DNA of 15,641 bases from Pseudomonas cavernicola. Its GTDB lineage: Bacteria > Pseudomonadota > Gammaproteobacteria > Pseudomonadales > Pseudomonadaceae. How positions within the stretch are numbered: the first letter of the stretch is position 1; every line of letters begins with the position of its first letter. This document shows positions 1 to 15,641 of the stretch, piece by piece. Below the pieces are notes generated by a model. The model did no database searches and was not told where the DNA came from. It saw only the letters and a list, made by a program, of their open reading frames with translations. The stretch covers positions 1-15,641 of the forward strand of contig NZ_QYUR01000004.1 of NCBI RefSeq assembly GCF_003596405.1, written 5' to 3'. A program made the position numbers and the translations under genes.

Positions 1-131
1 CCAGCCTGTTCGGGGGCGCGGCCGCTGACGAAGACGGTCATACCGGCAGCGCCGAGAGCCAGAGCAATGCCCTTGCCGACGCCACGACTGGCGCCAGTGA
101 CGACGGCGACCTGGGTTAGTTCTGTATTCAT
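1..131 (-). CDS. Short-chain dehydrogenase/reductase, N-terminal fragment (left copy)
   Basis: This is the first 43 or so residues of an SDR-family oxidoreductase, running off the window at base 1. The minus-strand ATG is at 131-129, preceded by an AGGAG Shine-Dalgarno at 138-142. The residues read V-V-T-G-A-S-R-G-V-G-K-G-I, the NAD(P)-binding glycine motif TGxxxGxG of classical SDRs at residues 12-19. The substrate cannot be told from this fragment. It is the same gene as 15468-15641, where slightly more is visible. In unique-locus terms it lies downstream of, and in the same direction as, the flavoprotein gene. Confidence 0.8.
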   Translation of the reverse strand, partial: MNTELTQVAVVTGASRGVGKGIALALGAAGMTVFVSGRAPEQA

Positions 132-181
132 ATGCAGCTCCTGGATTTTGTGCACGATCGGCGCCGTTTTCAGGCTCAGCT

Positions 182-271
182 TCGCGGATAAATCCGCTCC
201 TACAAAAGCCCGCAGTCGCGGCCATTTCACAGGCCGGACACGGCTCCCTGTGGGAGCGGATTTATCCGCGA
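182..271. repeat. REP-like inverted pair (left copy)
   Basis: TCGCGGATAAATCCGCTCC at 182-200 and GGAGCGGATTTATCCGCGA at 253-271 are exact inverted copies, with short extensions (CTACA and TGTG) on their outer flanks. Each copy is itself nearly palindromic. Paired copies of this type between genes are a familiar pattern in Pseudomonas (REP/REPIN elements). The spacer between them holds two of the one-base differences from the right arm: A4 against A5 at about 204-207 and C3 against C4 at about 209-211. Confidence 0.75.
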
Positions 272-293
272 TGGGTGGCACCTACGGCACTAG

Positions 294-2032
294 TTAGGTT
301 AATAGCGACGGACTGCTCAAGCGCTGGATCATCAGGCTCTGGTTCTTGATATGGTTCGCCGCCAGGTAACCGAAGGTCATGGCCGGGCCTATGGTGGAGC
401 CGGCACCCGGGTAGGTACGGCCCATCATCGAGGCCGCGCTGTTGCCGATCGCATACAGGCCGGCGATCGGCTGACCATCCACATGCAGTACGCGGGCATG
501 CACGTCGGTGAGCAGGCCGCCCTTGGTACCGATATCGCCGGCGTCGATGCGCACGGCATAGAACGGCCCCTTGGTGCAGCGGTGCCAGGCAGGGATGGGC
601 TGCACATTGGGATCACCGTAGTAGCGGTCGAACAGCGACTCGCCCTTATGGAAATCCTCGTCGCGCCCCTGCACGGCCATGGCGTTGAAGCGCTCCACGC
701 TGCGCGCCAATCCAGCGGGATCGACGCCGATCTGCCCGGCCAGGCCTCCAGGCTCGCGGCCTTGTGGAAATAGCCACGCAGGTGCTTTGGCAATTGCCAG
801 TCTGGCTGGGCGTAACCGGGCAGCAGCGCGCCGCAGGGTATTTGCGCCGGAACTCGGGCGTCGAAGACCATCCAGCAGGGCACGCTCACCGCGCCTTCGC
901 GTTGTTGGCATACATGGCGTAGACGATGTCGGTGTAGGGCGCTGCCTCGTTGACGAAGCGCTGGCCGGCGGAGTTGACCAGCACGCAGCCGGGCAAGGTA
1001 CGTTCGACGAACAGCGCGCGCTGTTTTTCCTCACCCGCAACCATGGGTGGTGGGCGCCCACCAACTGTGCCCCATCAGGGCTGTGTTCGCGCCTATGGCC
1101 TGGCCGGCGCGGATGGCGTCGCCGGTATTGTTCGGCGGCGTGGCGCTCCAGGTGGTCAGCGAAGGTTGTGGCAGATACTGCTCGCGCATCGCTGGTTACG
1201 TTCGAAACCACCGGCGGCGAGGATCACCCCATGGCGCGCCTTGATCCGTAGCGGACGCCCCTCACGGCTGGCCAGCACGCCACTCACCCGGCCGTCCTCG
1301 ACTATCAACTCTTCTAGCGCGCAGTTCAGCCACAGGGGTAGCGCGCGGTCCAACAGGGAGGCGCGCAAGGCGCCGATCAGCGCATTGCCCAGGGTCAGGA
1401 AACGGTCGCGGCGCGACAGCCGCCGACCCTCCCTATCCCGCCAGTAGCGCCAGATCACCCGCAGGGTCAGGCCGAGCCAACCCGGCCCACGGCAGAGCAG
1501 CACCTGCGCCTCCTTCATGGTCATGGCCATGCGCCCCATCATCAGGGTGCCGGGCGACGGCGGGCGCATGCGCAAAAATTCCTCACCCAGTTCGGCGGCA
1601 TCGAACGGCTGCGGGTCCATGGAGCGGTAACCGGCTTGCCGCCCTCCACCTCCGGGTAATAGTCGGCATAGTGGGGCTGCGCCTCGAAGCGCACCCGGCT
1701 GTGCCGCTCGAGGTACTCGACCATCTCGCGGCCGTGCTCGACATAGGCCTCGATGCGCCCATCGTCGATTTCCCCGTGGGTCACCGCTTTGATATAGCGA
1801 ATCGCCTCCTCCACCGAGTCCGTACCGCCGAGCGCGGCGATCCGATGGTTATTCGGAATCCAGATGCCGCCGCCGGACACCGCCGAAGTGCGCCATACTC
1901 CGCGCTCTTCTCGAGCAGCAGCACATTCAGCCCCAGGTCATGGGCGCGCAGCGCGGCGGTCATGGCCCCCGCTCCCGAGCCGACCACCAGCACATCGCAG
2001 CAGTCATCCCAGTTGATTTTGCCGTCACTCAT
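294..2032 (-). CDS. 3-ketosteroid delta1-dehydrogenase-like FAD flavoprotein, frameshifted left copy
   Basis: This is the same gene as 13563-15304, where the function is described. The minus-strand ATG at 2032-2030 has an AAGGAG ribosome site at 2041-2046, and the stop is at 296-294. The start region is the better one here: the T4 run at 2017-2020 keeps the N-terminus (MSDGKINWDD) in frame with the FAD motif, whereas the right arm lost one base. Ten other one-base differences break this copy, at about 573, 596, 743, 836, 856, 901, 1041, 1192, 1631 and 1891. Two of them (573 and 596) compensate, replacing a short internal stretch, so the right-arm N-P-C-L-A-P-L-H reads I-P-A-W-H-R-C-T here. 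These are best read as sequencing errors, not as gene decay. Confidence 0.8.
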
Positions 2033-2195
2033 GCGGCTCGCTCCTTTCTTGTTATACGAAGAGGCGCGCGCCGGACGGGCCGGCGGCAGTTAGACGGATT
2101 CTTATCCCCGCCCCGGCGAGCAACATCGTCCGATGGGACTACGGGCAAAGGGGTATGGGCGATGTGAATGCGGGCGCTCTGGTATGGGCTGTCTT

Positions 2196-2287
2196 CGTAG
2201 GGCGGGTGAAACCCGCCAAATAAAAACAAGCCCACACTATTAGCCAACCATCAGTTCTTTACCGCGCGGGTTTTACCCGCCCTACAA
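2196..2287. repeat. Second REP-like inverted pair, GTAGGGCGGGT type (left copy)
   Basis: CGTAGGGCGGGTGAAACCCGCC at 2196-2217 faces an inverted near copy, GCGCGGGTTTTACCCGCCCTACAA at 2264-2287. Each is a short palindrome in itself (GGCGGGT/ACCCGCC). The arrangement is that of a REP doublet. It differs in sequence from the pair at 182-271. Confidence 0.7.
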
Positions 2288-2349
2288 GGCTGTCGCTTTC
2301 TTCGGCGGCTTTGGGCGGCGCAGACAGTCTGCCCGGCGGGCAGCGCCAT

Positions 2350-2382
2350 GCCGGAGCGGACGATCAGCAGCGGCGCTCCGGC
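2350..2382. other. Hairpin in the divergent region (left copy)
   Basis: GCCGGAGCG (2350-2358) and CGCTCCGGC (2374-2382) form a perfect 9-base GC-rich stem with a 15-base loop. No T-run follows, so it is not a typical terminator. One GGACGAT motif starts at the edge of the stem. Confidence 0.5.
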
Positions 2383-2548
2383 AGTCGAAGCCTGGAATTT
2401 GAACCAAACTGATCTTAGGGATCGTCCGCGCTCACTAGTCTTTATGGACGATGTTGCGATTCCCCCGTGACCACATAGTCAGTCGCGCCTCACTTAACTG
2501 AACCTTGAGCGTAGGGCCTCGATGCCTTGCCTCACCGAGAGGAACAAA

Positions 2549-4183
2549 ATGATAAGAACAACAAAAAGCCAACTCCGTACACCGCTGAACAGCGCCATTC
2601 GCTTTGCGCTGGTAAGCCTGGCTGGCGGTTTGAGCCTGCAAGCCCAGGCGCTGTCCTTCCAGCCAGCGATGAGGTGGCCATAGATCTGGACACCACCCTG
2701 AGCTATGGCCTGGCCTGGCGTACCGACGACCGCGACCACCGACTGACCGCTGACGCCAATGGCAACGACGGTGACAACGCCTTCGACAAAGGCAGCCTGA
2801 TCAACAACCGCGTCGGCTTCCTCACCGAAGCCAACGTCAAATGGCGCGAAGACTACGGCCTGTTCGTTCGCGCCGCCGGCTTCTACGACAACGTCTACGA
2901 CCAGGGCAACGACAATGACACCGGCACCTCCAACTGTTTCGCCGGTGGTCAGTGCGCAAGACCCGACCGCTTTCCCCAGGACACCATCGACCAGCACCGC
3001 GAGGACCTGCGCCTGCTCGACTCCTACTTCTATGGCACCTGGGATGTAGCCGGCCGCGACCTCAACCTGCGCCTCGGCGATCAGGTGGTGAGCTGGGTGA
3101 GAGTCTGTTCTACCAAGGCATCTCGTCCGCGCAGAGCCCGGTGGACGCCACCAAGGCGACCACCCCCGGCGTCGAGGTCAAGGAGATCCTGCTGCCGGTC
3201 GGCCAGCTGTTCGCCCAGTACAGCCTGACCGACAACCTCAACCTGCAGGCCTACTACCAGTACGAGTGGGAAAAAACCGAACTGTTCGGGGTCGGCAGCT
3301 ACTTCTCCACCACCGACCTGATCGACGAAGGCGGCTTCAACGACGCCAGCGGTTTCCTCAAGCGGCTGGACGACGACGAACCGTCCGACAGCGGTCAATA
3401 CGGCGTGGCCATGACCTATACCGCCGAATCGCTGAACAATACCGAGTTCGGTGTTTACTATTCGCGTTTCCACGACAAGGCTCCGACGCTGGATTTCCTC
3501 AGCGACTTTGGCAGCTACCGGGTGCGCTACTTCGACGACATCGACCAATACGGCGCCAGTTTCGCCACCGTACTCGGCGACACCAGTTTCTCGGGTGAGG
3601 TCAGCTACCGCGATGGCCAGCCGGTGCTGGTCGATACCGCCACCACGTTCAACGGCTTCGGCTTCCCCATCGACATCCCGCTCCCGCCGCACGCGGTAAG
3701 TGCCGAAACCCTGCAAGCGCAGATGTCCATGATCCATGTGGTTGGCCCAACCTCCTGGGCGGACAACACCACCCTGGTCGGTGAAGTGGTTTACAACAAC
3801 GTCATGGACAACGACAAGGCGGAGTCTTTCACCGTCTTCATTCCTGGCATAGGCCCCCTCAACACTCCGGAAACCGACAAGCTCTTCAAGGACCGAGACG
3901 CCTGGGGCTACACCGTCCAGGCCTCGTTCGACTACAACAACGTGTTCAGCGGCTGGGACATGTCGGTTCCCATCACCTACAGCACCGCAGCGCAACGCGA
4001 TAGCTCGCTACTGGGCTCGATCAACTCGGGCGAGGGCGACGATCGCATGAGTGTCGCCAGCTCCTGGCGTTACCTCAACAACTTCACCGTGGAGGCTAGC
4101 TACAACGCTTTTCTGGGCAACTCGAAGAATGCCCCTTGGCAGACCGCGACAACGTCGCCCTCAACTTCAAATACCGTTTCTGA
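2549..4183 (+). CDS. DUF1302 family outer-membrane protein, frameshifted left copy
   Basis: The start is ATG 2549 (M-I-R-T-T-K-S), chosen because GAGAGG lies just upstream and because it begins a clean signal peptide; an in-frame upstream ATG at 2522 lacks these. The stop is TGA 4181-4183. Compared with the right arm this copy has lost a C at about 2663, a G at about 3095 and a C at about 4132, so it reads in pieces. At 3271-3276 it keeps an A6 run that the right arm shortened to five, and there this arm has the true frame (Y-E-W-E-K-T-E-L-F). Function and domain notes are under 11409-13045. DUF1329 follows after 23 bases in the same direction, suggesting one operon. Confidence 0.8.
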
Positions 4184-4206
4184 AGCCTCTGACGGAGGAA
4201 CCCAGC

Positions 4207-5587
4207 ATGACCAGAAGCACCCAAACCCTGTTCCGCACGGCCCTGGCCGTTACCCTGCTCAGCGGCAGCCTTGCCGTTCAAGCCAAGGTCAGCAACGAAG
4301 AGGCCGCTCGCCTGGGTCAAGATCTGACCCCCATGGGCGCGAGAAAGCCGGCAACGCCGACGGCAGCATCCCCGCCTGGTCCGGCAAATGGCGCGGCGCC
4401 CCGCCCCAGGTGAAATTCGCGGGCCCCGGCACGCCCTATCCAGACCCTTACGCCGATGAAAAACCCTTGTTCACCATCACCGCAGAGAACGTGGCGCAGT
4501 ACGCCGACAATCTCAGCGATGGCCAGAAGGCGCTGCTCAAACGCTATCCCACCACGTTCAAGATCCCGGTTTACCCGAGTCACCGCGACTTCCGCTACGA
4601 CCAGAAGACCGATGACAACATCAAACAGAATGCCCTCAACGCCGAGCTGATCGACGGCGGCTACGGCACCAAGAACGCCTTCGGCGCCTCGCCCTTCCCG
4701 ATCCCGAAGAACGGCAGCGAGCTGATGTTCAACCACGTCCTGCAGGGGCGCGCCGCGAAAGAAGAGGCCGACTACCTTCAGGTCGTGAACTATGCCGATG
4801 GCAACAAGGTCTTCGAGAAGGTCAACTACAAGATCCTCTCGACTTGGTCCGACACGAACCTTACGTTGGAGTCAGTCAATGGCGTTATGTCGCACTTCCT
4901 GCTGACCACTATGGAGCCCGTGCGCAAGAAAGGTGAGATGGTCGTTGGCCACGAATTCATCAACCCCGTAGCCTCACCCCGGCAGGCGTGGATGTACGCA
5001 CCAGGCCAACGCCGGGTACGTCGCGCACCCACTGTGGGCTATGACTCGCCCACCGGTGCTGGCGGCTTTCGCGTCTATGACGAGGACCGTCTGTTCAACG
5101 GCGCACCAGACCGCTACGAGTGGACGATCCTGGGCAAGAAAGAGCTCTACATCCCTACCACAACTACAAGCTCGACGATCCCAGCGTGAAGGCCGAGCAG
5201 TTGCTGGCCACCAAGGGCCACGTCAACCCTGACTATATGCGGTATGAGAAACACCGCGTCTGGGTGCTGGAAGCCAAGCTGAAGGAAGGCAGCCGCCACA
5301 TCTACGCCAAGCGCGTGCTCTACCTCGACGAGGACTCCTGGGCGGCTACGCTGGCTGACAACTACGACAACCGTGGCCAGTTTTGGCGCACCAACATGCA
5401 AGCCTCGATCTACACCTACGACACCCAGCGTTATCACGCCCGGTTGGGTATGTACCATGACCTGATCGCCGGCTCCTATCTGGTCGACCGGCTGCTGGTT
5501 GACCAGCAACCGGCGAAGTTGAATGCCAGCAACTTCACGGAAAGCGATTTCACCCCAGGCAACCTGCGCAAGTTGGGTACGCGCTAA
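4207..5587 (+). CDS. DUF1329 family exported protein, frameshifted left copy
   Basis: The start is ATG 4207, eight bases after GGAGG (4194-4198), and the stop is TAA 5585-5587. The first residues form a signal peptide (hydrophobic core ALAVTLLSGSLAV, likely cleavage after V-Q-A at residue 26). Two bases are missing relative to the right arm, a C at about 4340 and a C at about 5153, so the frame breaks near both ends. At about 4697-4699 this arm keeps CCC where the right arm has CC, and here it is the left version that keeps the frame (A-S-P-F-P-I-P-K-N). Combining the arms gives a 460-residue protein. Function notes are under 10004-11385. Confidence 0.8.
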
Positions 5588-5728
5588 GAACCTGCTCAAG
5601 ATCGTCGCGAGCGCAGGTCAGGCAAGGCGAAAACAGGCGAGGACGCGGAGTTTACGAGTGGTAAATGAGCAGTCCGAGCCTGTTTTCAACGCAGCATGGC
5701 CAAGCGCAGCAGATATTGAATAGGTTCT
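5587..5728. repeat. MITE-like nested palindromic repeat (left copy)
   Basis: The element is bounded by inverted ends AGAACCT (5587-5593) and AGGTTCT (5722-5728). Inside are a second inverted pair, GAAAACAGGC (5629-5638) and GCCTGTTTTC (5678-5687), and a third at the centre, TTTAC (5651-5655) and GTAAA (5661-5665). It is 142 bases, carries no gene, and its first base is the last base of the DUF1329 stop codon. I recall sequences of this kind recurring in Pseudomonas genomes, but copy number cannot be seen here. It could also help end transcription. Confidence 0.55.
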
Positions 5729-5735
5729 GAGCCTA

Positions 5736-5807
5736 GCTCCCTGATCGGCCCGTTCGCTCAGGGAGCCCAATTGCAGCCGGCGTGCGGCACAGCACAATCC
5801 GCACGCC
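5736..5807. other. Two adjacent hairpins upstream of the SurE-like gene (left copy)
   Basis: GCTCCCTGA (5736-5744) pairs with TCAGGGAGC (5758-5766) over a 13-base loop. GGCGTGCGG (5779-5787) pairs with CCGCACGCC (5799-5807) over an 11-base loop. Both are perfect 9-base stems without a T-run. They sit between the repeat and the SurE-like gene. The remaining bases to 5911 show only the ribosome site; I see no gene. Confidence 0.5.
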
Positions 5808-5911
5808 AGCAGCATATCTGTCGAACCTCTGTAACCAAGCCTTGCCAGACTGGCGGTGCCGCTGCGCCCCGCCGGTGATGGCCTTACTTTGATCGCATGG
5901 AGACGATAATA

Positions 5912-6901
5912 ATGAATAAGTTGTTAACCGCCGCCCTGGGCGTGGCCGGTGTGAGCCTGTCACTGCAGGCCAATGCTTTGAACATCCTGCTAACCAACGA
6001 TGACGGCTGCCGTGCGCCGGGCATCGGCTTCGTCTACCAGGCACTGGTTGGCGCCGGTCACCAGGTCACCCTGGTCGGCCCGCTGAACGACAGCAGTGGT
6101 ATCGGTGCCGCCAGCGTGGTCAACCCCGGCCAGGCCGTGGCGGTGACCGAGCTGGCGCCCGGCAAGTTCTGCGTCGGCCCGCCGGAAGGCTACACCCCTC
6201 CGGCCGGCAAGACCTCGGCAATCGGCACGCCGGTGGATGCGGTCAACGTCGGCCTTGGCCTGCTGCTCAAGGACAACCCACCGGATCTGGTGGTCTCCGG
6301 GACCAACTTCGGCGACAACGTCGGCCCACTGACCCAGATGTCCGGCACAGTGAACGCTGCCGTACGCGCCATGTTCAAGGGGGTGCCGGCGGTGGCGGTG
6401 TCTACCGCGATCGACATGGAGCTGTTTATGCGTGACCGCCAGGCTGGCTACCTGAAGACCCTGAACGCCATGGACGACACGGCCAACTTCGCGGTGAAGG
6501 TGATCGACAAGGCCTCTGCAACCGGTGCCCAGGCCAAGCGTCAGTGCGAGCAGAGCAAGGACAAAGCCAAGCCGTTCTGCGAGCTGAACGTACTCGGTTT
6601 GCCAGGCACCACCGGGCTGAACATCAACTACCCGGCCCGCGAAGCCAGCGAGGTGACTGGCGTCAGCTATGCACCGATCGGCGACTGGGGCACCGTGAAC
6701 TTCGTCCCGCAGCGCGGCGCGGATGGCATTGTACGGGTCAATCTGGTGTCGCCACCGACCCCGACAGCAGCCCAGCAGCAGGCCGATGCTTATCAGCTGT
6801 GGTCGGGCAATGCGGTGATCACCGTAATCGACGGCAATATGACCGCGTTACCGGCGCTGCAGGAGAAGGCCAAGCTGATGCTCGAAGGTCTGAAACCCTG
6901 A
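5912..6901 (+). CDS. Secreted SurE-like 5'/3'-nucleotidase (acid phosphatase), left copy
   Basis: This is a 329-residue SurE-family metal-dependent phosphatase with an export signal. SurE enzymes remove phosphate from nucleoside monophosphates. Residues 1-22 (M-N-K-L-L-T..., core AALGVAGVSLSL, cleavage after A-N-A) form a signal peptide, so a periplasmic site is inferred; classical SurE is cytoplasmic and about 250 residues. The SurE motifs follow: N-I-L-L-T-N-D-D-G with metal-binding D30 and D31, S61/S62 in N-D-S-S-G-I-G, G-T-P-V-D-A-V at 105-111, S-G-T-N-F-G-D-N-V-G with N132, then S-G-T-V-N-A-A. ATG 5912 is chosen over an in-frame ATG at 5897 because GGAG at 5899-5902 sits at the right distance and the signal peptide begins there. 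It is identical to the right copy. A bidirectional terminator follows. Confidence 0.88.
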   Translation: MNKLLTAALGVAGVSLSLQANALNILLTNDDGCRAPGIGFVYQALVGAGHQVTLVGPLNDSSGIGAASVVNPGQAVAVTELAPGKFCVGPPEGYTPPAGKTSAIGTPVDAVNVGLGLLLKDNPPDLVVSGTNFGDNVGPLTQMSGTVNAAVRAMFKGVPAVAVSTAIDMELFMRDRQAGYLKTLNAMDDTANFAVKVIDKASATGAQAKRQCEQSKDKAKPFCELNVLGLPGTTGLNINYPAREASEVTGVSYAPIGDWGTVNFVPQRGADGIVRVNLVSPPTPTAAQQQADAYQLWSGNAVITVIDGNMTALPALQEKAKLMLEGLKP

Positions 6902-6913
6902 TTCAGCAGATAT

Positions 6914-6944
6914 AAAAAAGCCCCGCCTAGTGCGGGGCTTTTTT
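6914..6944. terminator. Bidirectional rho-independent terminator (left copy)
   Basis: AAAAAAGCCCCGC, loop CTAGT, then GCGGGGCTTTTTT. The perfect GC stem is flanked by A6 and T6, so it works in both directions and serves the convergent SurE-like and helicase genes. Confidence 0.92.
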
Positions 6945-6964
6945 ATGGGGCTAATCAGCGCAGA

Positions 6965-7831
6965 TCAATCTTCGCGATAGCGACGCAGCTTCAACTGCTT
7001 ACCTGCCACACGAGTGTCCTTGAGCTTGGTCAGCAGACGCTCCAGGCCATCTTCCGGCAGCTCTACCAGGCTGAAGCTGTCACGCACCTGAATGCGACCG
7101 ATCGCCTCACGAGCCAGGCCGCCTTCGTTGAGGATGGCACCAAGCAGATTCTTCGCGGCGATACCATCACGGGCACCCAGCGCAGTACGGCAACGCGCAC
7201 GGCCATCGGCCAGCGGCATCGGCGCGCGACGCTCACGCACATCACCACGCTCGGAACGCTCACCGCTACGCTCGCTACGTTCACGCGGTGCACTGTTCGG
7301 CACCAGCGGCTGCTCACGCTCGACTTCAGCCAGGGTCAGCGCTTGGCCGTTGGTGGCTTTGCGCAGCAAAGCCGCGGCCAGCGCACGCGGGCTGCAACCG
7401 ATATCGGCGGTCAGACGATCCAGCAGATCGCCATGCGTCGCTTCAGCATCAGCCACCAGCGGCGCCAGGCTGCTGGTCAGCTTCTTGATGCGTGCCGTTA
7501 GCACAGCAGCAGCATCTGGCAGGCGCACTTCGGCGACTTTTTGTCCAGTCACACGCTCGATCACCTGCAGCATGCGGCGCTCACGCGGCGTCACCAGCAG
7601 CAAGGCGCGACCGGTACGACCGGCACGCCCGGTACGACCGATACGGTGCACATAGGATTCCGGATCGTACGGCATATCCACGTTCATCACGTGATGATGC
7701 GCGGCACGTCAAGGCACGGGCCGCGACGTCGGTAGCAACGACGATGTCCAGCGGCCATCTTTCAGCGAGTCGATCACACGCTCGGATTCTGCGCATGCAC
7801 CGTCAGCCGCAGCTGGATGCCGGCTCGCCTG
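6965..7831 (-). CDS. deaD: DeaD/DbpA-type DEAD-box RNA helicase, C-terminal part (left copy)
   Basis: This is an ATP-dependent RNA helicase of the DeaD (CsdA) type, which remodels structured RNA, for example in ribosome assembly and cold adaptation. The frame is clean from the stop at 6965 to about 7690. It shows helicase motif VI ([10 protein letters not shown]), the usual R-E-R-R-M-L-Q stretch, a linker rich in Arg, Ser and Glu (E-R-S-E-R-S-G-E-R), and a C-terminal DbpA-like RNA-binding domain (G-A-R-D-G-I to the L-R-R-Y-R-E-D end). From about 7690 to the fold the same gene continues (V-V-A-T-D-V-A-A-R motif V; S-L-K-D-G-R) but with missing bases. The N-terminal part, including the Walker A and DEAD motifs, is absent because the fold cuts it off. 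Confidence 0.85.
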
Positions 7832-8014
7832 ACGACAGGTCGCCGGACATCGGCGCCTGATGCTCGCGAGCCGTGATCCGGATCTGACTACGGCGCGGGC
7901 CGATGCCGCGTCACGTGATGAACGGATATGCCGATCCGGAATCCTATGTGCACCGTATCGTCTACCGGCGTGCCGGTACCGGTCGCGCCTTGCTGCTGTG
8001 ACGCCGCTGAGCGC
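7695..8014. other. Fold (hinge) of the inverted duplication with low-quality sequence
   Basis: The axis lies at about 7832-7835, where GATGCCGGCTCGCCTG (7816-7831) meets an imperfect complement in CAGGTCGCCGGACATC (7836-7851). Both sides encode the same helicase segment, but with many missing bases. The left side, read on the minus strand, can be rebuilt as a conserved DEAD-box stretch if a handful of bases are restored. The right side has lost about 40 percent of its bases between 7836 and 7924. Between 7925 and 8014 it lacks 14 bases, all deletions, at seven places. No gene should be called across this zone. No loop or spacer sequence separates the arms. Confidence 0.8.
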
Positions 8015-8626
8015 CGCATGCTGCAGGTGATCGAGCGTGTGACTGGACAAAAAGTCGCCGAAGTGCGCCTGCCAGATGCTGCTGCTGTGCTAACGGCACG
8101 CATCAAGAAGCTGACCAGCAGCCTGGCGCCGCTGGTGGCTGATGCTGAAGCGACGCATGGCGATCTGCTGGATCGTCTGACCGCCGATATCGGTTGCAGC
8201 CCGCGTGCGCTGGCCGCGGCTTTGCTGCGCAAAGCCACCAACGGCCAAGCGCTGACCCTGGCTGAAGTCGAGCGTGAGCAGCCGCTGGTGCCGAACAGTG
8301 CACCGCGTGAACGTAGCGAGCGTAGCGGTGAGCGTTCCGAGCGTGGTGATGTGCGTGAGCGTCGCGCGCCGATGCCGCTGGCCGATGGCCGTGCGCGTTG
8401 CCGTACTGCGCTGGGTGCCCGTGATGGTATCGCCGCGAAGAATCTGCTTGGTGCCATCCTCAACGAAGGCGGCCTGGCTCGTGAGGCGATCGGTCGCATT
8501 CAGGTGCGTGACAGCTTCAGCCTGGTAGAGCTGCCGGAAGATGGCCTGGAGCGTCTGCTGACCAAGCTCAAGGACACTCGTGTGGCAGGTAAGCAGTTGA
8601 AGCTGCGTCGCTATCGCGAAGATTGA
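7838..8626 (+). CDS. deaD: DeaD/DbpA-type RNA helicase, C-terminal part, degraded at the fold (right copy)
   Basis: This is the mirror copy of 6965-7831. The coding frame is reliable only from about 8014 ([10 protein letters not shown]) to the TGA at 8624-8626. Upstream, the Y-V-H-R-I motif VI segment is still recognisable near 7946 but is scrambled by deletions. An open frame can be drawn from 7928, but its first 25 or so residues are an artefact of those deletions. Everything after 8014 matches the left copy: the Arg/Ser/Glu linker and the DbpA-like RNA-binding domain. It is not a second helicase gene. Confidence 0.8.
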
Positions 8627-8646
8627 TCTGCGCTGATTAGCCCCAT

Positions 8647-8677
8647 AAAAAAGCCCCGCACTAGGCGGGGCTTTTTT
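8647..8677. terminator. Bidirectional rho-independent terminator (right copy)
   Basis: Identical to the terminator at 6914-6944: GCCCCGC stem, 5-base loop, A6 and T6 flanks. It lies between the convergent helicase (plus) and SurE-like (minus) genes. Confidence 0.92.
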
Positions 8678-8689
8678 ATATCTGCTGAA

Positions 8690-9679
8690 TCAGGGTTTCA
8701 GACCTTCGAGCATCAGCTTGGCCTTCTCCTGCAGCGCCGGTAACGCGGTCATATTGCCGTCGATTACGGTGATCACCGCATTGCCCGACCACAGCTGATA
8801 AGCATCGGCCTGCTGCTGGGCTGCTGTCGGGGTCGGTGGCGACACCAGATTGACCCGTACAATGCCATCCGCGCCGCGCTGCGGGACGAAGTTCACGGTG
8901 CCCCAGTCGCCGATCGGTGCATAGCTGACGCCAGTCACCTCGCTGGCTTCGCGGGCCGGGTAGTTGATGTTCAGCCCGGTGGTGCCTGGCAAACCGAGTA
9001 CGTTCAGCTCGCAGAACGGCTTGGCTTTGTCCTTGCTCTGCTCGCACTGACGCTTGGCCTGGGCACCGGTTGCAGAGGCCTTGTCGATCACCTTCACCGC
9101 GAAGTTGGCCGTGTCGTCCATGGCGTTCAGGGTCTTCAGGTAGCCAGCCTGGCGGTCACGCATAAACAGCTCCATGTCGATCGCGGTAGACACCGCCACC
9201 GCCGGCACCCCCTTGAACATGGCGCGTACGGCAGCGTTCACTGTGCCGGACATCTGGGTCAGTGGGCCGACGTTGTCGCCGAAGTTGGTCCCGGAGACCA
9301 CCAGATCCGGTGGGTTGTCCTTGAGCAGCAGGCCAAGGCCGACGTTGACCGCATCCACCGGCGTGCCGATTGCCGAGGTCTTGCCGGCCGGAGGGGTGTA
9401 GCCTTCCGGCGGGCCGACGCAGAACTTGCCGGGCGCCAGCTCGGTCACCGCCACGGCCTGGCCGGGGTTGACCACGCTGGCGGCACCGATACCACTGCTG
9501 TCGTTCAGCGGGCCGACCAGGGTGACCTGGTGACCGGCGCCAACCAGTGCCTGGTAGACGAAGCCGATGCCCGGCGCACGGCAGCCGTCATCGTTGGTTA
9601 GCAGGATGTTCAAAGCATTGGCCTGCAGTGACAGGCTCACACCGGCCACGCCCAGGGCGGCGGTTAACAACTTATTCAT
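8690..9679 (-). CDS. Secreted SurE-like 5'/3'-nucleotidase, right copy
   Basis: This mirror copy of 5912-6901 is the same over all 990 bases as far as I compared, so the open frame and 329-residue product are trustworthy. The minus-strand ATG is at 9679-9677 and the stop at 8692-8690. The signal peptide, the D-D-G metal site at residues 30-32, and the G-T-P-V-D and S-G-T-N motifs are as in the left copy. The extra 75 or so residues over a typical SurE lie in the signal peptide and in insertions such as the E-G-Y-T-P-P-A-G-K loop and the Cys-containing segment Q-C-E-Q-S-K-D-K-A-K-P-F-C. Two Cys in that segment could form a disulfide in the periplasm (inference). Confidence 0.88.
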   Translation of the reverse strand: MNKLLTAALGVAGVSLSLQANALNILLTNDDGCRAPGIGFVYQALVGAGHQVTLVGPLNDSSGIGAASVVNPGQAVAVTELAPGKFCVGPPEGYTPPAGKTSAIGTPVDAVNVGLGLLLKDNPPDLVVSGTNFGDNVGPLTQMSGTVNAAVRAMFKGVPAVAVSTAIDMELFMRDRQAGYLKTLNAMDDTANFAVKVIDKASATGAQAKRQCEQSKDKAKPFCELNVLGLPGTTGLNINYPAREASEVTGVSYAPIGDWGTVNFVPQRGADGIVRVNLVSPPTPTAAQQQADAYQLWSGNAVITVIDGNMTALPALQEKAKLMLEGLKP

Positions 9680-9783
9680 TATTATCGTCTCCATGCGATC
9701 AAAGTAAGGCCATCACCGGCGGGGCGCAGCGGCACCGCCAGTCTGGCAAGGCTTGGTTACAGAGGTTCGACAGATATGCTGCT

Positions 9784-9855
9784 GGCGTGCGGATTGTGCT
9801 GTGCCGCACGCCGGCTGCAATTGGGCTCCCTGAGCGAACGGGCCGATCAGGGAGC
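9784..9855. other. Two adjacent hairpins upstream of the SurE-like gene (right copy)
   Basis: Mirror of 5736-5807: stems at 9784-9792/9804-9812 and 9825-9833/9847-9855. Together with the repeat at 9863-10004 they fill most of the 324-base gap 9680-10003, which shows no gene. Confidence 0.5.
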
Positions 9856-9862
9856 TAGGCTC

Positions 9863-10004
9863 AGAACCTATTCAATATCTGCTGCGCTTGGCCATGCTGC
9901 GTTGAAAACAGGCTCGGACTGCTCATTTACCACTCGTAAACTCCGCGTCCTCGCCTGTTTTCGCCTTGCCTGACCTGCGCTCGCGACGATCTTGAGCAGG
10001 TTCT
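9863..10004. repeat. MITE-like nested palindromic repeat (right copy)
   Basis: Mirror of 5587-5728, with the same 7-base inverted ends and nested inner pairs. It abuts the DUF1329 stop codon at 10004. Its presence here is explained by the duplication of the whole locus, so it is not evidence of transposition. Confidence 0.55.
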
Positions 10005-11385
10005 TAGCGCGTACCCAACTTGCGCAGGTTGCCTGGGGTGAAATCGCTTTCCGTGAAGTTGCTGGCATTCAACTTCGCCGGTTGCTGGTCAACCAGCAGC
10101 CGGTCGACCAGATAGGAGCCGGCGATCAGGTCATGGTACATACCCAACCGGGCGTGATAACGCTGGGTGTCGTAGGTGTAGATCGAGGCTTGCATGTTGG
10201 TGCGCCAAAACTGGCCACGGTTGTCGTAGTTGTCAGCCAGCGTAGCCGCCCAGGAGTCCTCGTCGAGGTAGAGCACGCGCTTGGCGTAGATGTGGCGGCT
10301 GCCTTCCTTCAGCTTGGCTTCCAGCACCCAGACGCGGTGTTTCTCATACCGCATATAGTCAGGGTTGACGTGGCCCTTGGTGGCCAGCAACTGCTCGGCC
10401 TTCACGCTGGGATCGTCGAGCTTGTAGTTGTGGTAGGGGATGTAGAGCTCTTTCTTGCCCAGGATCGTCCACTCGTAGCGGTCTGGTGCGCCGTTGAACA
10501 GACGGTCCTCGTCATAGACGCGAAAGCCGCCAGCACCGGTGGGCGAGTCATAGCCCACAGTGGGTGCGCGACGTACCCGGCGTTGGCCTGGTGCGTACAT
10601 CCACGCCTGCCGGGGTGAGGCTACGGGGTTGATGAATTCGTGGCCAACGACCATCTCACCTTTCTTGCGCACGGGCTCCATAGTGGTCAGCAGGAAGTGC
10701 GACATAACGCCATTGACTGACTCCAACGTAAGGTTCGTGTCGGACCAAGTCGAGAGGATCTTGTAGTTGACCTTCTCGAAGACCTTGTTGCCATCGGCAT
10801 AGTTCACGACCTGAAGGTAGTCGGCCTCTTCTTTCGCGGCGCGCCCCTGCAGGACGTGGTTGAACATCAGCTCGCTGCCGTTCTTCGGGATCGGAAGGGC
10901 GAGGCGCCGAAGGCGTTCTTGGTGCCGTAGCCGCCGTCGATCAGCTCGGCGTTGAGGGCATTCTGTTTGATGTTGTCATCGGTCTTCTGGTCGTAGCGGA
11001 AGTCGCGGTGACTCGGGTAAACCGGGATCTTGAACGTGGTGGGATAGCGTTTGAGCAGCGCCTTCTGGCCATCGCTGAGATTGTCGGCGTACTGCGCCAC
11101 GTTCTCTGCGGTGATGGTGAACAAGGGTTTTTCATCGGCGTAAGGGTCTGGATAGGGCGTGCCGGGGCCCGCGAATTTCACCTGGGGCGGGGCGCCGCGC
11201 CATTTGCCGGACCAGGCGGGGATGCTGCCGTCGGCGTTGCCGGCTTTCTCGGCGCCCATGGGGGTCAGATCTTGACCCAGGCGAGCGGCCTCTTCGTTGC
11301 TGACCTTGGCTTGAACGGCAAGGCTGCCGCTGAGCAGGGTAACGGCCAGGGCCGTGCGGAACAGGGTTTGGGTGCTTCTGGTCAT
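10004..11385 (-). CDS. DUF1329 family exported protein, one frameshift (right copy)
   Basis: The minus-strand ATG is at 11385-11383 and the stop at 10006-10004. One C is missing at 10893-10894, which splits the frame into about 172 and 287 residues; restoring it from the left arm gives 460 residues, the usual size for DUF1329. The protein has a signal peptide (residues 1-26, ending A-V-Q-A) and no lipobox Cys that I can see, so it is probably periplasmic or held at the outer membrane. Family features seen are the N-terminal L-G-Q-D-L-T-P-M-G-A-E-K-A-G and I-P-A-W-S-G-K-W. DUF1329 proteins are commonly encoded next to DUF1302 proteins, often near transporters for hydrophobic compounds; the biochemical role is not established. 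The gene starts 23 bases after the DUF1302 stop, supporting co-transcription. Confidence 0.85.
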
Positions 11386-11408
11386 GCTGGGTTCCTCCGT
11401 CAGAGGCT

Positions 11409-13045
11409 TCAGAAACGGTATTTGAAGTTGAGGGCGACGTTGTCGCGGTCTGCCAAGGGGGCATTCTTCGAGTTGCCCAGAAAAGCGTTGTAGCTAGCCT
11501 CCACGGTGAAGTTGTTGAGGTAACGCCAGGAGCTGGCGACACTCATGCGATCGTCGCCCTCGCCCGAGTTGATCGAGCCCAGTAGCGAGCTATCGCGTTG
11601 CGCTGCGGTGCTGTAGGTGATGGGAACCGACATGTCCCAGCCGCTGAACACGTTGTTGTAGTCGAACGAGGCCTGGACGGTGTAGCCCCAGGCGTCTCGG
11701 TCCTTGAAGAGCTTGTCGGTTTCCGGAGTGTTGAGGGGGCCTATGCCAGGAATGAAGACGGTGAAAGACTCCGCCTTGTCGTTGTCCATGACGTTGTTGT
11801 AAACCACTTCACCGACCAGGGTGGTGTTGTCCGCCCAGGAGGTTGGGCCAACCACATGGATCATGGACATCTGCGCTTGCAGGGTTTCGGCACTTACCGC
11901 GTGCGGCGGGAGCGGGATGTCGATGGGGAAGCCGAAGCCGTTGAACGTGGTGGCGGTATCGACCAGCACCGGCTGGCCATCGCGGTAGCTGACCTCACCC
12001 GAGAAACTGGTGTCGCCGAGTACGGTGGCGAAACTGGCGCCGTATTGGTCGATGTCGTCGAAGTAGCGCACCCGGTAGCTGCCAAAGTCGCTGAGGAAAT
12101 CCAGCGTCGGAGCCTTGTCGTGGAAACGCGAATAGTAAACACCGAACTCGGTATTGTTCAGCGATTCGGCGGTATAGGTCATGGCCACGCCGTATTGACC
12201 GCTGTCGGACGGTTCGTCGTCGTCCAGCCGCTTGAGGAAACCGCTGGCGTCGTTGAAGCCGCCTTCGTCGATCAGGTCGGTGGTGGAGAAGTAGCTGCCG
12301 ACCCCGAACAGTTCGGTTTTTCCCACTCGTACTGGTAGTAGGCCTGCAGGTTGAGGTTGTCGGTCAGGCTGTACTGGGCGAACAGCTGGCCGACCGGCAG
12401 CAGGATCTCCTTGACCTCGACGCCGGGGGTGGTCGCCTTGGTGGCGTCCACCGGGCTCTGCGCGGACGAGATGCCTTGGTAGAACAGACTCTCACCCCAG
12501 CTCACCACCTGATCGCCGAGGCGCAGGTTGAGGTCGCGGCCGGCTACATCCCAGGTGCCATAGAAGTAGGAGTCGAGCAGGCGCAGGTCCTCGCGGTGCT
12601 GGTCGATGGTGTCCTGGGGAAAGCGGTCGGGTCTTGCGCACTGACCACCGGCGAAACAGTTGGAGGTGCCGGTGTCATTGTCGTTGCCCTGGTCGTAGAC
12701 GTTGTCGTAGAAGCCGGCGGCGCGAACGAACAGGCCGTAGTCTTCGCGCCATTTGACGTTGGCTTCGGTGAGGAAGCCGACGCGGTTGTTGATCAGGCTG
12801 CCTTTGTCGAAGGCGTTGTCACCGTCGTTGCCATTGGCGTCAGCGGTCAGTCGGTGGTCGCGGTCGTCGGTACGCCAGGCCAGGCCATAGCTCAGGGTGG
12901 TGTCCAGATCTATGGCCACCTCATCGCTGGGCTGGAAGGACAGCGCCTGGGCTTGCAGGCTCAAACCGCCAGCCAGGCTTACCAGCGCAAAGCGAATGGC
13001 GCTGTTCAGCGGTGTACGGAGTTGGCTTTTTGTTGTTCTTATCAT
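11409..13045 (-). CDS. DUF1302 family outer-membrane beta-barrel-like protein, one frameshift (right copy)
   Basis: The minus-strand ATG is at 13045-13043 and the stop at 11411-11409. One base is missing in the T-run at 12317-12321 (A5 on the coding strand against A6 in the left arm), which splits the frame; repaired, the product is 545 residues. Residues 1-34 form a signal peptide ending A-Q-A. The mature part is rich in alternating polar and aromatic strands and ends N-F-K-Y-R-F, a terminal Phe typical of outer-membrane barrels. A Cys pair (S-N-C-F-A-G-G-Q-C) may form a disulfide. DUF1302 proteins are thought to act at the outer membrane, possibly in passage of hydrophobic substrates; the exact role is unknown. 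It is the first gene of a likely DUF1302-DUF1329 operon, divergent from the flavoprotein. Confidence 0.85.
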
Positions 13046-13562
13046 TTTGTTCCTCTCGGTGAGGCAAGGCATCGAGGCCCTACGCTCAAGGTTCAGTTAA
13101 GTGAGGCGCGACTGACTATGTGGTCACGGGGGGAATCGCAACATCGTCCATAAAGACTAGTGAGCGCGGACGATCCCCTAAGATCAGTTTGGTTCAAATT
13201 CCAGGCTTCGACTGCCGGAGCGCCGCTGCTGATCGTCCGCTCCGGCATGGCGCTGCCCGCCGGGCAGACTGTCTGCGCCGCCCAAAGCCGCCGAAGAAAG
13301 CGACAGCCTTGTAGGGCGGGTAAAACCCGCGCGGTAAAGAACTGATGGTTGGCTAATAGTGTGGGCTTGTTTTTATTTGGCGGGTTTCACCCGCCCTACG
13401 AAGACAGCCCATACCAGAGCGCCCGCATTCACATCGCCCATACCCTTTGCCCGTAGTCCCATCGGACGATGTTGCTCGCCGGGGCGGGGATAAGAATCCG
13501 TCTAACTGCCGCCGGCCCGTCCGGCGCGCGCCTCTTCGTATAACAAGAAAGGAGCGAGCCGC
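13046..13562. promoter_or_regulatory. Divergent intergenic control region (right copy)
   Basis: Mirror of 2033-2548. It differs from it by three one-base run lengths: C6 against G/C5 near 13128, C4 against G3 near 13176, and G3 against G4 near 13445. The GGACGAT-type motifs are at 13143-13149, 13168-13174, 13232-13238 and 13464-13470. The 12-base inverted match is at 13138-13149 and 13464-13475. The hairpin is at 13214-13246. The flavoprotein ribosome site AAGGAG is at 13549-13554. I see no gene here and cannot place promoter boxes with confidence. Confidence 0.55.
13309..13400. repeat. Second REP-like inverted pair, GTAGGGCGGGT type (right copy)
   Basis: Mirror of 2196-2287: TTGTAGGGCGGGTAAAACCC... 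at 13309-13332 and its inverted partner at 13379-13400, with 46 bases between. Confidence 0.7.
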
Positions 13563-15304
13563 ATGAGTGACGGCAAATCAACTGGGATGACTGCTGCGAT
13601 GTGCTGGTGGTCGGCTCGGGAGCGGGGGCCATGACCGCCGCGCTGCGCGCCCATGACCTGGGGCTGAATGTGCTGCTGCTCGAGAAGAGCGCGGAGTATG
13701 GCGGCACTTCGGCGGTGTCCGGCGGCGGCATCTGGATTCCGAATAACCATCGGATCGCCGCGCTCGGCGGTACGGACTCGGTGGAGGAGGCGATTCGCTA
13801 TATCAAAGCGGTGACCCACGGGGAAATCGACGATGGGCGCATCGAGGCCTATGTCGAGCACGGCCGCGAGATGGTCGAGTACCTCGAGCGGCACAGCCGG
13901 GTGCGCTTCGAGGCGCAGCCCCACTATGCCGACTATTACCCGGAGGTGGAGGGCGGCAAGCCGGGTTACCGCTCCATGGACCCGCAGCCGTTCGATGCCG
14001 CCGAACTGGGTGAGGAATTTTTGCGCATGCGCCCGCCGTCGCCCGGCACCCTGATGATGGGGCGCATGGCCATGACCATGAAGGAGGCGCAGGTGCTGCT
14101 CTGCCGTGGGCCGGGTTGGCTCGGCCTGACCCTGCGGGTGATCTGGCGCTACTGGCGGGATAGGGAGGGTCGGCGGCTGTCGCGCCGCGACCGTTTCCTG
14201 ACCCTGGGCAATGCGCTGATCGGCGCCTTGCGCGCCTCCCTGTTGGACCGCGCGCTACCCCTGTGGCTGAACTGCGCGCTAGAAGAGTTGATAGTCGAGG
14301 ACGGCCGGGTGAGTGGCGTGCTGGCCAGCCGTGAGGGGCGTCCGCTACGGATCAAGGCGCGCCATGGGGTGATCCTCGCCGCCGGTGGTTTCGAACGTAA
14401 CCAGGCGATGCGCGAGCAGTATCTGCCACAACCTTCGCTGACCACCTGGAGCGCCACGCCGCCGAACAATACCGGCGACGCCATCCGCGCCGGCCAGGCC
14501 ATAGGCGCGAACACAGCCCTGATGGGGCACAGTTGGTGGGCGCCCACCACCCATGTTGCGGGTGAGGAAAAACAGCGCGCGCTGTTCGTCGAACGTACCT
14601 TGCCCGGCTGCGTGCTGGTCAACTCCGCCGGCCAGCGCTTCGTCAACGAGGCAGCGCCCTACACCGACATCGTCTACGCCATGTATGCCAACAACCGCGA
14701 AGGCGCGGTGAGCGTGCCCTGCTGGATGGTCTTCGACGCCGAGTTCCGGCGCAAATACCCCTGCGGCGCGCTGCTGCCCGGTTACGCCCAGCCAGACTGG
14801 CAATTGCCAAAGCACCTGCGTGGCTATTTCCACAAGGCCGCGAGCCTGGAGGCCCTGGCCGGGCAGATCGGCGTCGATCCCGCTGGATTGGCGCGCAGCG
14901 TGGAGCGCTTCAACGCCATGGCCGTGCAGGGGCGCGACGAGGATTTCCATAAGGGCGAGTCGCTGTTCGACCGCTACTACGGTGATCCCAATGTGCAGCC
15001 CAATCCCTGCCTGGCACCGCTGCACAAGGGGCCGTTCTATGCCGTGCGCATCGACGCCGGCGATATCGGTACCAAGGGCGGCCTGCTCACCGACGTGCAT
15101 GCCCGCGTACTGCATGTGGATGGTCAGCCGATCGCCGGCCTGTATGCGATCGGCAACAGCGCGGCCTCGATGATGGGCCGTACCTACCCGGGTGCCGGCT
15201 CCACCATAGGCCCGGCCATGACCTTCGGTTACCTGGCGGCGAACCATATCAAGAACCAGAGCCTGATGATCCAGCGCTTGAGCAGTCCGTCGCTATTAAC
15301 CTAA
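13563..15304 (+). CDS. 3-ketosteroid delta1-dehydrogenase-like FAD flavoprotein (right copy)
   Basis: This is the better copy of a flavoprotein of about 580 residues in the FAD_binding_2 group (fumarate reductase / KstD-like). KstD enzymes introduce the 1,2 double bond into 3-ketosteroid ring A using FAD. The N-terminus carries the FAD-binding fold (V-V-G-S-G-A-G-A-M-T-A-A, about residues 16-27) and a E-K-S-A-E-Y-G-G-T-S stretch. The C-terminus has G-R-T-Y-P-G-A-G-S-T-I-G-P-A-M-T-F-G-Y, in which Tyr542 and Gly546 match the spacing of the catalytic Tyr and Gly of Rhodococcus KSTD1 (Y487/G491); Tyr367 in F-V-N-E-A-A-P-Y is a candidate for a second Tyr. The ATG 13563 has a good ribosome site. 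One A is missing at 13575-13577, so the open frame seems to begin at GTG 13601; the left arm shows the true N-terminus. There is no signal peptide, so it is cytoplasmic. The substrate is unproven. Confidence 0.85.
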
Positions 15305-15325
15305 CTAGTGCGTAGGTGCCACCCA

Positions 15326-15417
15326 TCGCGGATAAATCCGCTCCCACAGGGAGCCGTGTCCGGCCTGTGAAATGGCCGCGACTGCGGGGCTTTTTGTAGG
15401 AGCGGATTTATCCGCGA
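15326..15417. repeat. REP-like inverted pair (right copy)
   Basis: TCGCGGATAAATCCGCTCCC at 15326-15345 and its inverted partner, TGTAGGAGCGGATTTATCCG onward, at 15395-15417. It lies in the 163-base gap between the flavoprotein and the short-chain dehydrogenase. Run lengths in the spacer (C/G4 and T/A5) are one longer than in the left copy. Confidence 0.75.
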
Positions 15418-15467
15418 AGCTGAGCCTGAAAACGGCGCCGATCGTGCACAAAATCCAGGAGCTGCAT

Positions 15468-15641
15468 ATGAATACAGAACTAACCCAGGTCGCCGTCGTC
15501 ACTGGCGCCAGTCGTGGCGTCGGCAAGGGCATTGCTCTGGCTCTCGGCGCTGCCGGTATGACCGTCTTCGTCAGCGGCCGCGCCCCCGAACAGGCTGGTT
15601 CCAGGCTGCATGGCCAGGCACTCACCGGCTCGCTCGAGGAG
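15468..15641 (+). CDS. Short-chain dehydrogenase/reductase, N-terminal fragment (right copy)
   Basis: ATG 15468 follows AGGAG (15457-15461) at a 6-base spacing. The 58 residues seen before the window ends are an SDR N-terminus: beta strand V-A-V-V-T-G, glycine motif T-G-A-S-R-G-V-G (residues 12-19), helix, then M-T-V-F-V-S-G-R, the second strand, whose following Arg often points to NADP(H) (weak evidence). Bases 15599-15641 extend beyond the end of the left arm. The gene is in the same direction as the flavoprotein 163 bases upstream, so the two may act on the same compound, for example hydroxyl/ketone interconversion before or after ring dehydrogenation (inference). The rest of the enzyme is outside the window. 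Confidence 0.85.
   Translation, partial: MNTELTQVAVVTGASRGVGKGIALALGAAGMTVFVSGRAPEQAGSRLHGQALTGSLEE

Follow-up and report, generated by a model that had tools for sequence, protein, structure and literature searches.

Does a stretch of bacterial DNA that reads as a locus followed by its own reverse complement represent a natural palindrome, or was it folded on the way from the cell to the assembly? This question is raised by contig NZ_QYUR01000004.1 of Pseudomonas cavernicola (RefSeq assembly GCF_003596405.1), which is analysed here over its whole length of 15,641 bases (the window; contig C4) and is one of eight contigs (C1 to C8) in an assembly of 5,626,424 bases. Judged from the assembled sequence, the window is very nearly certain to be a fold-back artefact of an ordinary Pseudomonas-type chromosome stretch, kept as a redundant contig, and not a natural palindrome. 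We favour this reading because an unfolded copy of the locus is present in the assembly, the errors are private to the arms, an error gradient surrounds the axis, and other fold-backs occur in the same assembly.

Mirror-image architecture and the unfolded copy

In a self-alignment, window positions 1-7694 match positions 15598-7911 on the minus strand over 7710 columns with 99.507% identity, no mismatches and 34 gap openings (E = 0), in agreement with the first-pass annotation, which had described one locus and then its own reverse complement. The final 43 bases (15599-15641) have no mirror partner because the left end begins 43 bases further into the locus (C2:1910097 versus C2:1910054). The same locus is found unfolded in contig C2 (2,980,139 bases) at 1910054-1917932 and beyond, where the fold point is crossed by the open 568-amino-acid frame of a DEAD-box helicase; continuation of deaD past the fold had been proposed as a test of the palindrome, and on C2 the gene does continue. 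Comparison with C2 divides the window as follows.

1-7694, plus strand: forward arm, a copy of C2:1910097-1917801
7695-7910, no strand: degraded fold zone, a deletion-rich version of the chromosome whose turning point probably falls between C2:1917932 and about 1917970, within the DEAD-box helicase gene
7911-15641, minus strand: return arm, a reverse complement copy of C2:1910054-1917801

As a sequence of letters the mirror image is real; as biology it is almost certainly false. Relative to C2, the forward arm (1-7694) carries 19 differences, all of them one-base run-length changes, and the return arm (15598-7911) carries 15, those less than 100 bases from the axis including deletions as long as 4 bases; neither arm shows a substitution and just one difference is common to both. 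With cheaper gaps the return match could be extended to window position 7891 (7891-15641) at the cost of one substitution. The earlier claim that outside the fold zone the arms differ by nothing but single-base length changes stands; at about 7911-8010, right-arm deletions reach 4 bases and some lie outside same-letter runs. At the single shared site, C2:1913959, a run of C is one base longer in both arms than in C2. Since both arms carry the longer run and the DUF1302 frame on C2 (509 amino acids) ends unlike the return-arm DUF1302 frame near this site, C2 itself may be the erroneous copy here, perhaps through a consensus error. Independent errors in each arm are expected from two passes over one molecule; in a natural palindrome one would expect changes common to both arms, or substitutions.

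A real inverted dimer coexisting with the chromosome, such as a hairpin-ended linear replicon or a template-switching inverted amplicon, would yield a near-exact palindromic contig next to an unfolded chromosomal copy. In the arms observed here, however, one-base run-length changes break reading frames, and all except one of the changes are confined to a single arm; the seven scanned open reading frames of the window (of 50 listed) belong to ordinary chromosomal families, viz., FAD-binding families, SurE, DUF1329 with LolA_like, DUF1302, DbpA and Helicase_C, with no replication or telomere family among these seven.

Fold-backs on every contig

Self-comparison of the assembly identified 11 fold axes at unrelated loci, distributed over all eight contigs; that fold-backs are not peculiar to the locus in the window is the decisive result for the artefact reading. 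The scan covered contig ends (15-40 kb), small contigs and stretches around matches, and not the interiors of C2, C3, C6 and C8. The axes, the unfolded copies located for them and the self-alignment mismatches between their arms are the following.

C1 end: one axis; unfolded copy at the C3 end; 12 mismatches
C2 end: one axis; unfolded copy at the C2 start; 0 mismatches
C3 start: one axis; 24 mismatches
C4: one axis; unfolded copy in C2; 0 mismatches
C5: one axis; unfolded copy at C6:753001-760876; 20 mismatches
C6 start: one axis; unfolded copy at the C8 start; 0 mismatches
C6 end: two axes; 52 and 60 mismatches
C7: one axis with a short return arm (175 bases at the contig end); unfolded copy at C8:889406-900212; 0 mismatches
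C8 end: two axes; 28 and 114-116 mismatches

A second assembly copy is unfolded in all six axes compared. This count leaves out five axes: the one at the C3 start, for which a second long copy was not found in the assembly, and the four at the C6 and C8 ends, for which only the repeated passes themselves matched. C4, C5 and nearly all of C7 duplicate sequence present elsewhere in the assembly. At the C6 and C8 ends, a segment of about 9.8 and 9.3 kb, respectively, is traversed three times, each pass reversing the direction, before the contig continues, the two successive turns being about 9.9 and 9.3 kb apart. Four of the ten ends of the five large contigs (C1 start, C2 start, C3 end and C8 start) have no fold within the 35-40 kb searched.

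A real dimer should be specific to one or a few loci, and the spread of fold-backs over unrelated loci on all eight contigs weighs so heavily against it that, together with the arm-private changes and the ordinary gene families, we regard it as highly improbable. A broader version of the same idea, in which the culture held a genuine genome-wide population of inverted-dimer DNA from many chromosomal places, generated for example by fold-back replication, is to our minds just as hard to credit.

The turn and the error gradient around it

An axis at 7832-7835 had been proposed in the first-pass annotation. A mirror axis does exist, but it is less sharp than this, being embedded in a degraded zone of about 200 bases with the turn probably nearer 7813-7816. 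The forward arm tracks the chromosome as far as window position 7813 (C2:1917932). Aligned as a return pass starting from about C2:1917970, positions 7814-7890 give a very deletion-rich match with a score of 51.0, which none of 200 shuffles reaches by a thin margin (best shuffle 50.8), and read in the forward direction the same positions do no better than shuffles (85 of 200 reach the score). Because the forward arm ends at 7813 and 7814-7890 fits a return pass and not a forward one, the turn probably lies at about 7813-7816, within the degraded zone of about 200 bases (7695-7910). A 47-mer spanning the axis has no exact match in a contig collection of genomes from which its own genome is possibly excluded.

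Pooling the six compared axes (66,701 aligned columns, 4 substitutions in all) gives a steep gradient of insertion-deletion (indel) letters per kb, listed below by distance from the axis; gap scoring was cheap and alignments were extended maximally, and the high indel density and few substitutions of the innermost 50 bases are in part made by the method.

0-50 bases: 117 before the axis, 168 after
50-100 bases: 45 before, 60 after
100-200 bases: 31 before, 20 after
200-500 bases: 3.9 before, 4.6 after
500-1000 bases: 1.0 before, 0.8 after
1000-2000 bases: 1.9 before, 0.2 after
2000-4000 bases: 1.4 before, 0.6 after
more than 4000 bases: 4.1 before, 1.9 after

At 200 bases or more from the axis, same-letter runs hold 130 of the 146 indel letters. 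The collapse of accuracy toward the axes in these six pooled cases is a further point against a real dimer. It also bears on the possibility that the assembler joined two correct opposite-strand reads end to end, with no fold-back molecule or read involved. In keeping with such a join, every fold-back found is either on a small contig or no farther than about 32 kb from where its contig ends, in a scan that covered contig ends and small contigs. A join requires an overlap, though, and the axis instead has a deletion-rich version of the passes, about 200 bases long, that resembles a badly read turn; the gradient is shared by the pool of six axes, and the two successive turns on C6 and C8 are expected of repeated passes over one insert. 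We consider a pure assembler error unlikely, if less so than a real dimer. Given that accuracy decays toward the axis and that the axes are scattered over unrelated loci, we infer that the fold arose during library making or sequencing and not in the assembler alone.

Comparison with reported fold-back artefacts

Heinz, Meyerson and Li (2026, PMC12870357) define a fold-back read by a second segment that maps within 200 bases of the first on the opposite strand, with a filter for symmetry about the midpoint. C4 behaves like these reads. Its return pass begins at the same place on the opposite strand, the reference distance from the end of the forward match to the start of the return match being 100 bases, and its turn, which in any case lies within 7695-7910 of 15,641, falls within 10% of the midpoint. 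As with those reads, another sequence (C2) runs unbroken over the place, here at the level of contigs. Unlike the single human and mouse reads that the paper describes, the artefact here appears to have reached a bacterial assembly as contigs. Its authors found fold-backs to be all but absent from PacBio HiFi data (with three PacBio samples in total) and to make up about 0.55-0.6% in Nanopore genomic DNA, with searchable sequence between the two segments in less than half of fold-back reads.

Two further reports describe related effects. Whole-genome amplification gives palindromic reads with artificial inverted copies, sometimes nested, which hinder de novo assembly (Pacasus, Warris et al. 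2018, PMC6218980); the ends of C6 and C8 resemble such nested palindromes. Nanopore sequencing loses bases behind an inverted-duplicate junction, with a low-quality region that roughly equals the preceding pass in length (Spealman et al. 2020, PMC7229812). The return arm of C4 is similarly deletion-rich for about 100 bases; in contrast to that description, the loss around the present axes fades within about 200-500 bases and does so on both sides, so the reported effect alone does not suffice as an explanation.

Proposed origin of the fold

Under the fold-back reading, a chromosomal stretch of about 7.8 kb would have been read on one strand up to where the fragment ends and then back on the complementary strand, all in one continuous read (or a few). 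Each pass would acquire its own base-calling or consensus errors, chiefly changes in run length, and accuracy would collapse around the turn. With fold-back reads frequent in the long-read data set, the assembler could then have retained the folded read as the separate, redundant contig C4. The route may have been an undetected hairpin adapter on PacBio, a fold-back molecule on Nanopore, or amplification with strand displacement. Repeated near-equal passes, as at the ends of C6 and C8, would suit either an insert read several times with undetected PacBio hairpin adapters or nested amplification products.

Some observations weigh against the fold-back reading. No adapter could be detected at the axis with two adapter strings (491 of 500 and 213 of 500 shuffles reach the score), so that the axis offers no direct sign of a missed-adapter read; a retained adapter occurs in some fold-back artefacts and is not a required feature. 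Several of the other fold-backs carry substitutions between their arms (12 to 116 mismatches) and the window carries none; these mismatches may in part reflect forced alignment through the axis. Finally, all of the evidence is the assembly at contig level, and an additional biological copy of this one locus would be formally compatible with it.

The finding matters as a warning only: with at least one fold-back on each of the eight contigs, gene counts, duplications, inverted repeats and the annotation of contig ends in this assembly are unreliable.

Relatives of the locus

Window positions 7000-8600 were searched in 38 genomes (its own, 24 of the same genus and 13 of the same order). In each of the 24 same-genus genomes, the two halves of the window land on a single overlapping place, with opposite strands (table read by eye); the left-half matches end at the fold since the query folds there, and the result shows one place per genome, not continuation of the gene. 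Among the same-order genomes, 12 of 13 give at least a weak match and one gives none. The preference of the first-pass annotation for a fold-back read or a mis-assembly is borne out by these 24 genomes together with the unfolded copy on C2, the run-length indels private to each arm and the fold-backs on all eight contigs.

The SurE protein has its best named relative in Pseudomonas sp. 2FG (90% identity), and all 21 loci found belong to Pseudomonas. When these were compared with C2, none of the 21 had a matched piece across the fold point; within the stretches retrieved, no piece matched the helicase gene adjacent to surE, and the comparison is hence uninformative on the fold. Self-inverted matches within the 21 loci reach 145 bases at most. 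The FAD oxidoreductase, DUF1302-DUF1329 and surE parts of the C2 copy are all matched in 20 of these loci, the remaining one (L076) being without an oxidoreductase match.

Gene content and minor features

The gene set on C2 comprises a 580-amino-acid FAD_binding_2 oxidoreductase, DUF1302, DUF1329 (460 amino acids), SurE (334 amino acids) and the DEAD-box helicase (568 amino acids), with families assigned from the open reading frames of the window and frames read on C2. In the window these genes appear as follows.

About 294-2032, minus strand: mirror of the FAD_binding_2 oxidoreductase gene in the forward arm, in several pieces
5897-6901, plus strand: SurE-family gene, 334 amino acids (PF01975), open in both arms; mirror at 8690-9694 (minus)
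6965-7690, minus strand: C-terminal part of the DEAD-box helicase (end of Helicase_C plus the DbpA RNA-binding domain), cut by the fold; mirror within the open frame 7928-8626 (plus)
10004-11385, minus strand: DUF1329 gene of the return arm, split in two (PF07044); mirror in the forward arm; a single 460-amino-acid frame on C2
11409-13072, minus strand: DUF1302 gene of the return arm, split in two (PF06980); mirror in the forward arm
13601-15304, plus strand: FAD_binding_2 oxidoreductase gene in the return arm, a 567-amino-acid open frame (PF00890); a 580-amino-acid frame on C2

No RNA gene was found in the whole window with Rfam at gathering scores or with ARAGORN. Between DUF1329 and surE, positions 5584-5734 hold a repeat some 150 bases long, with its mirror in the return arm; its single strand forms one long hairpin (-67.7 kcal/mol, z -5.9, 0 of 200 shuffles). 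Full or partial copies at 80-96% occur in at least 35 further places of the genome (best 40 of 308 candidates scored), and the repeat has the appearance of a small palindromic element of mobile or REP-like type; its sole Rfam hint is sX9, under the cut-off. Short stretches at 147-275 and 2194-2292 also have copies at 85-91% elsewhere in the genome.

Elsewhere in the assembly, the first 1,367 bases of C2 are identical to a stretch that immediately precedes the fold at its end, such that C2 overlaps itself head to tail, as would a closed replicon or a join made by a fold-back, though the genome is in several large contigs. The window and the stretches from C3, C6 and C8 have a G+C content of 60-65%, and C5 and C7 have 51-52%; the start (G000:C1:1-20000) of the 69.7 kb contig C1 has 45% and may be a plasmid, phage or island. 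A 1.3 kb element at about 10256-11646 of G000:C8:963120-978119 recurs at least 10 times at 98-100%, its 54-base end recurs in many short copies (best 40 of 441 candidates), and it can be likened to an insertion sequence associated with short palindromic repeats.

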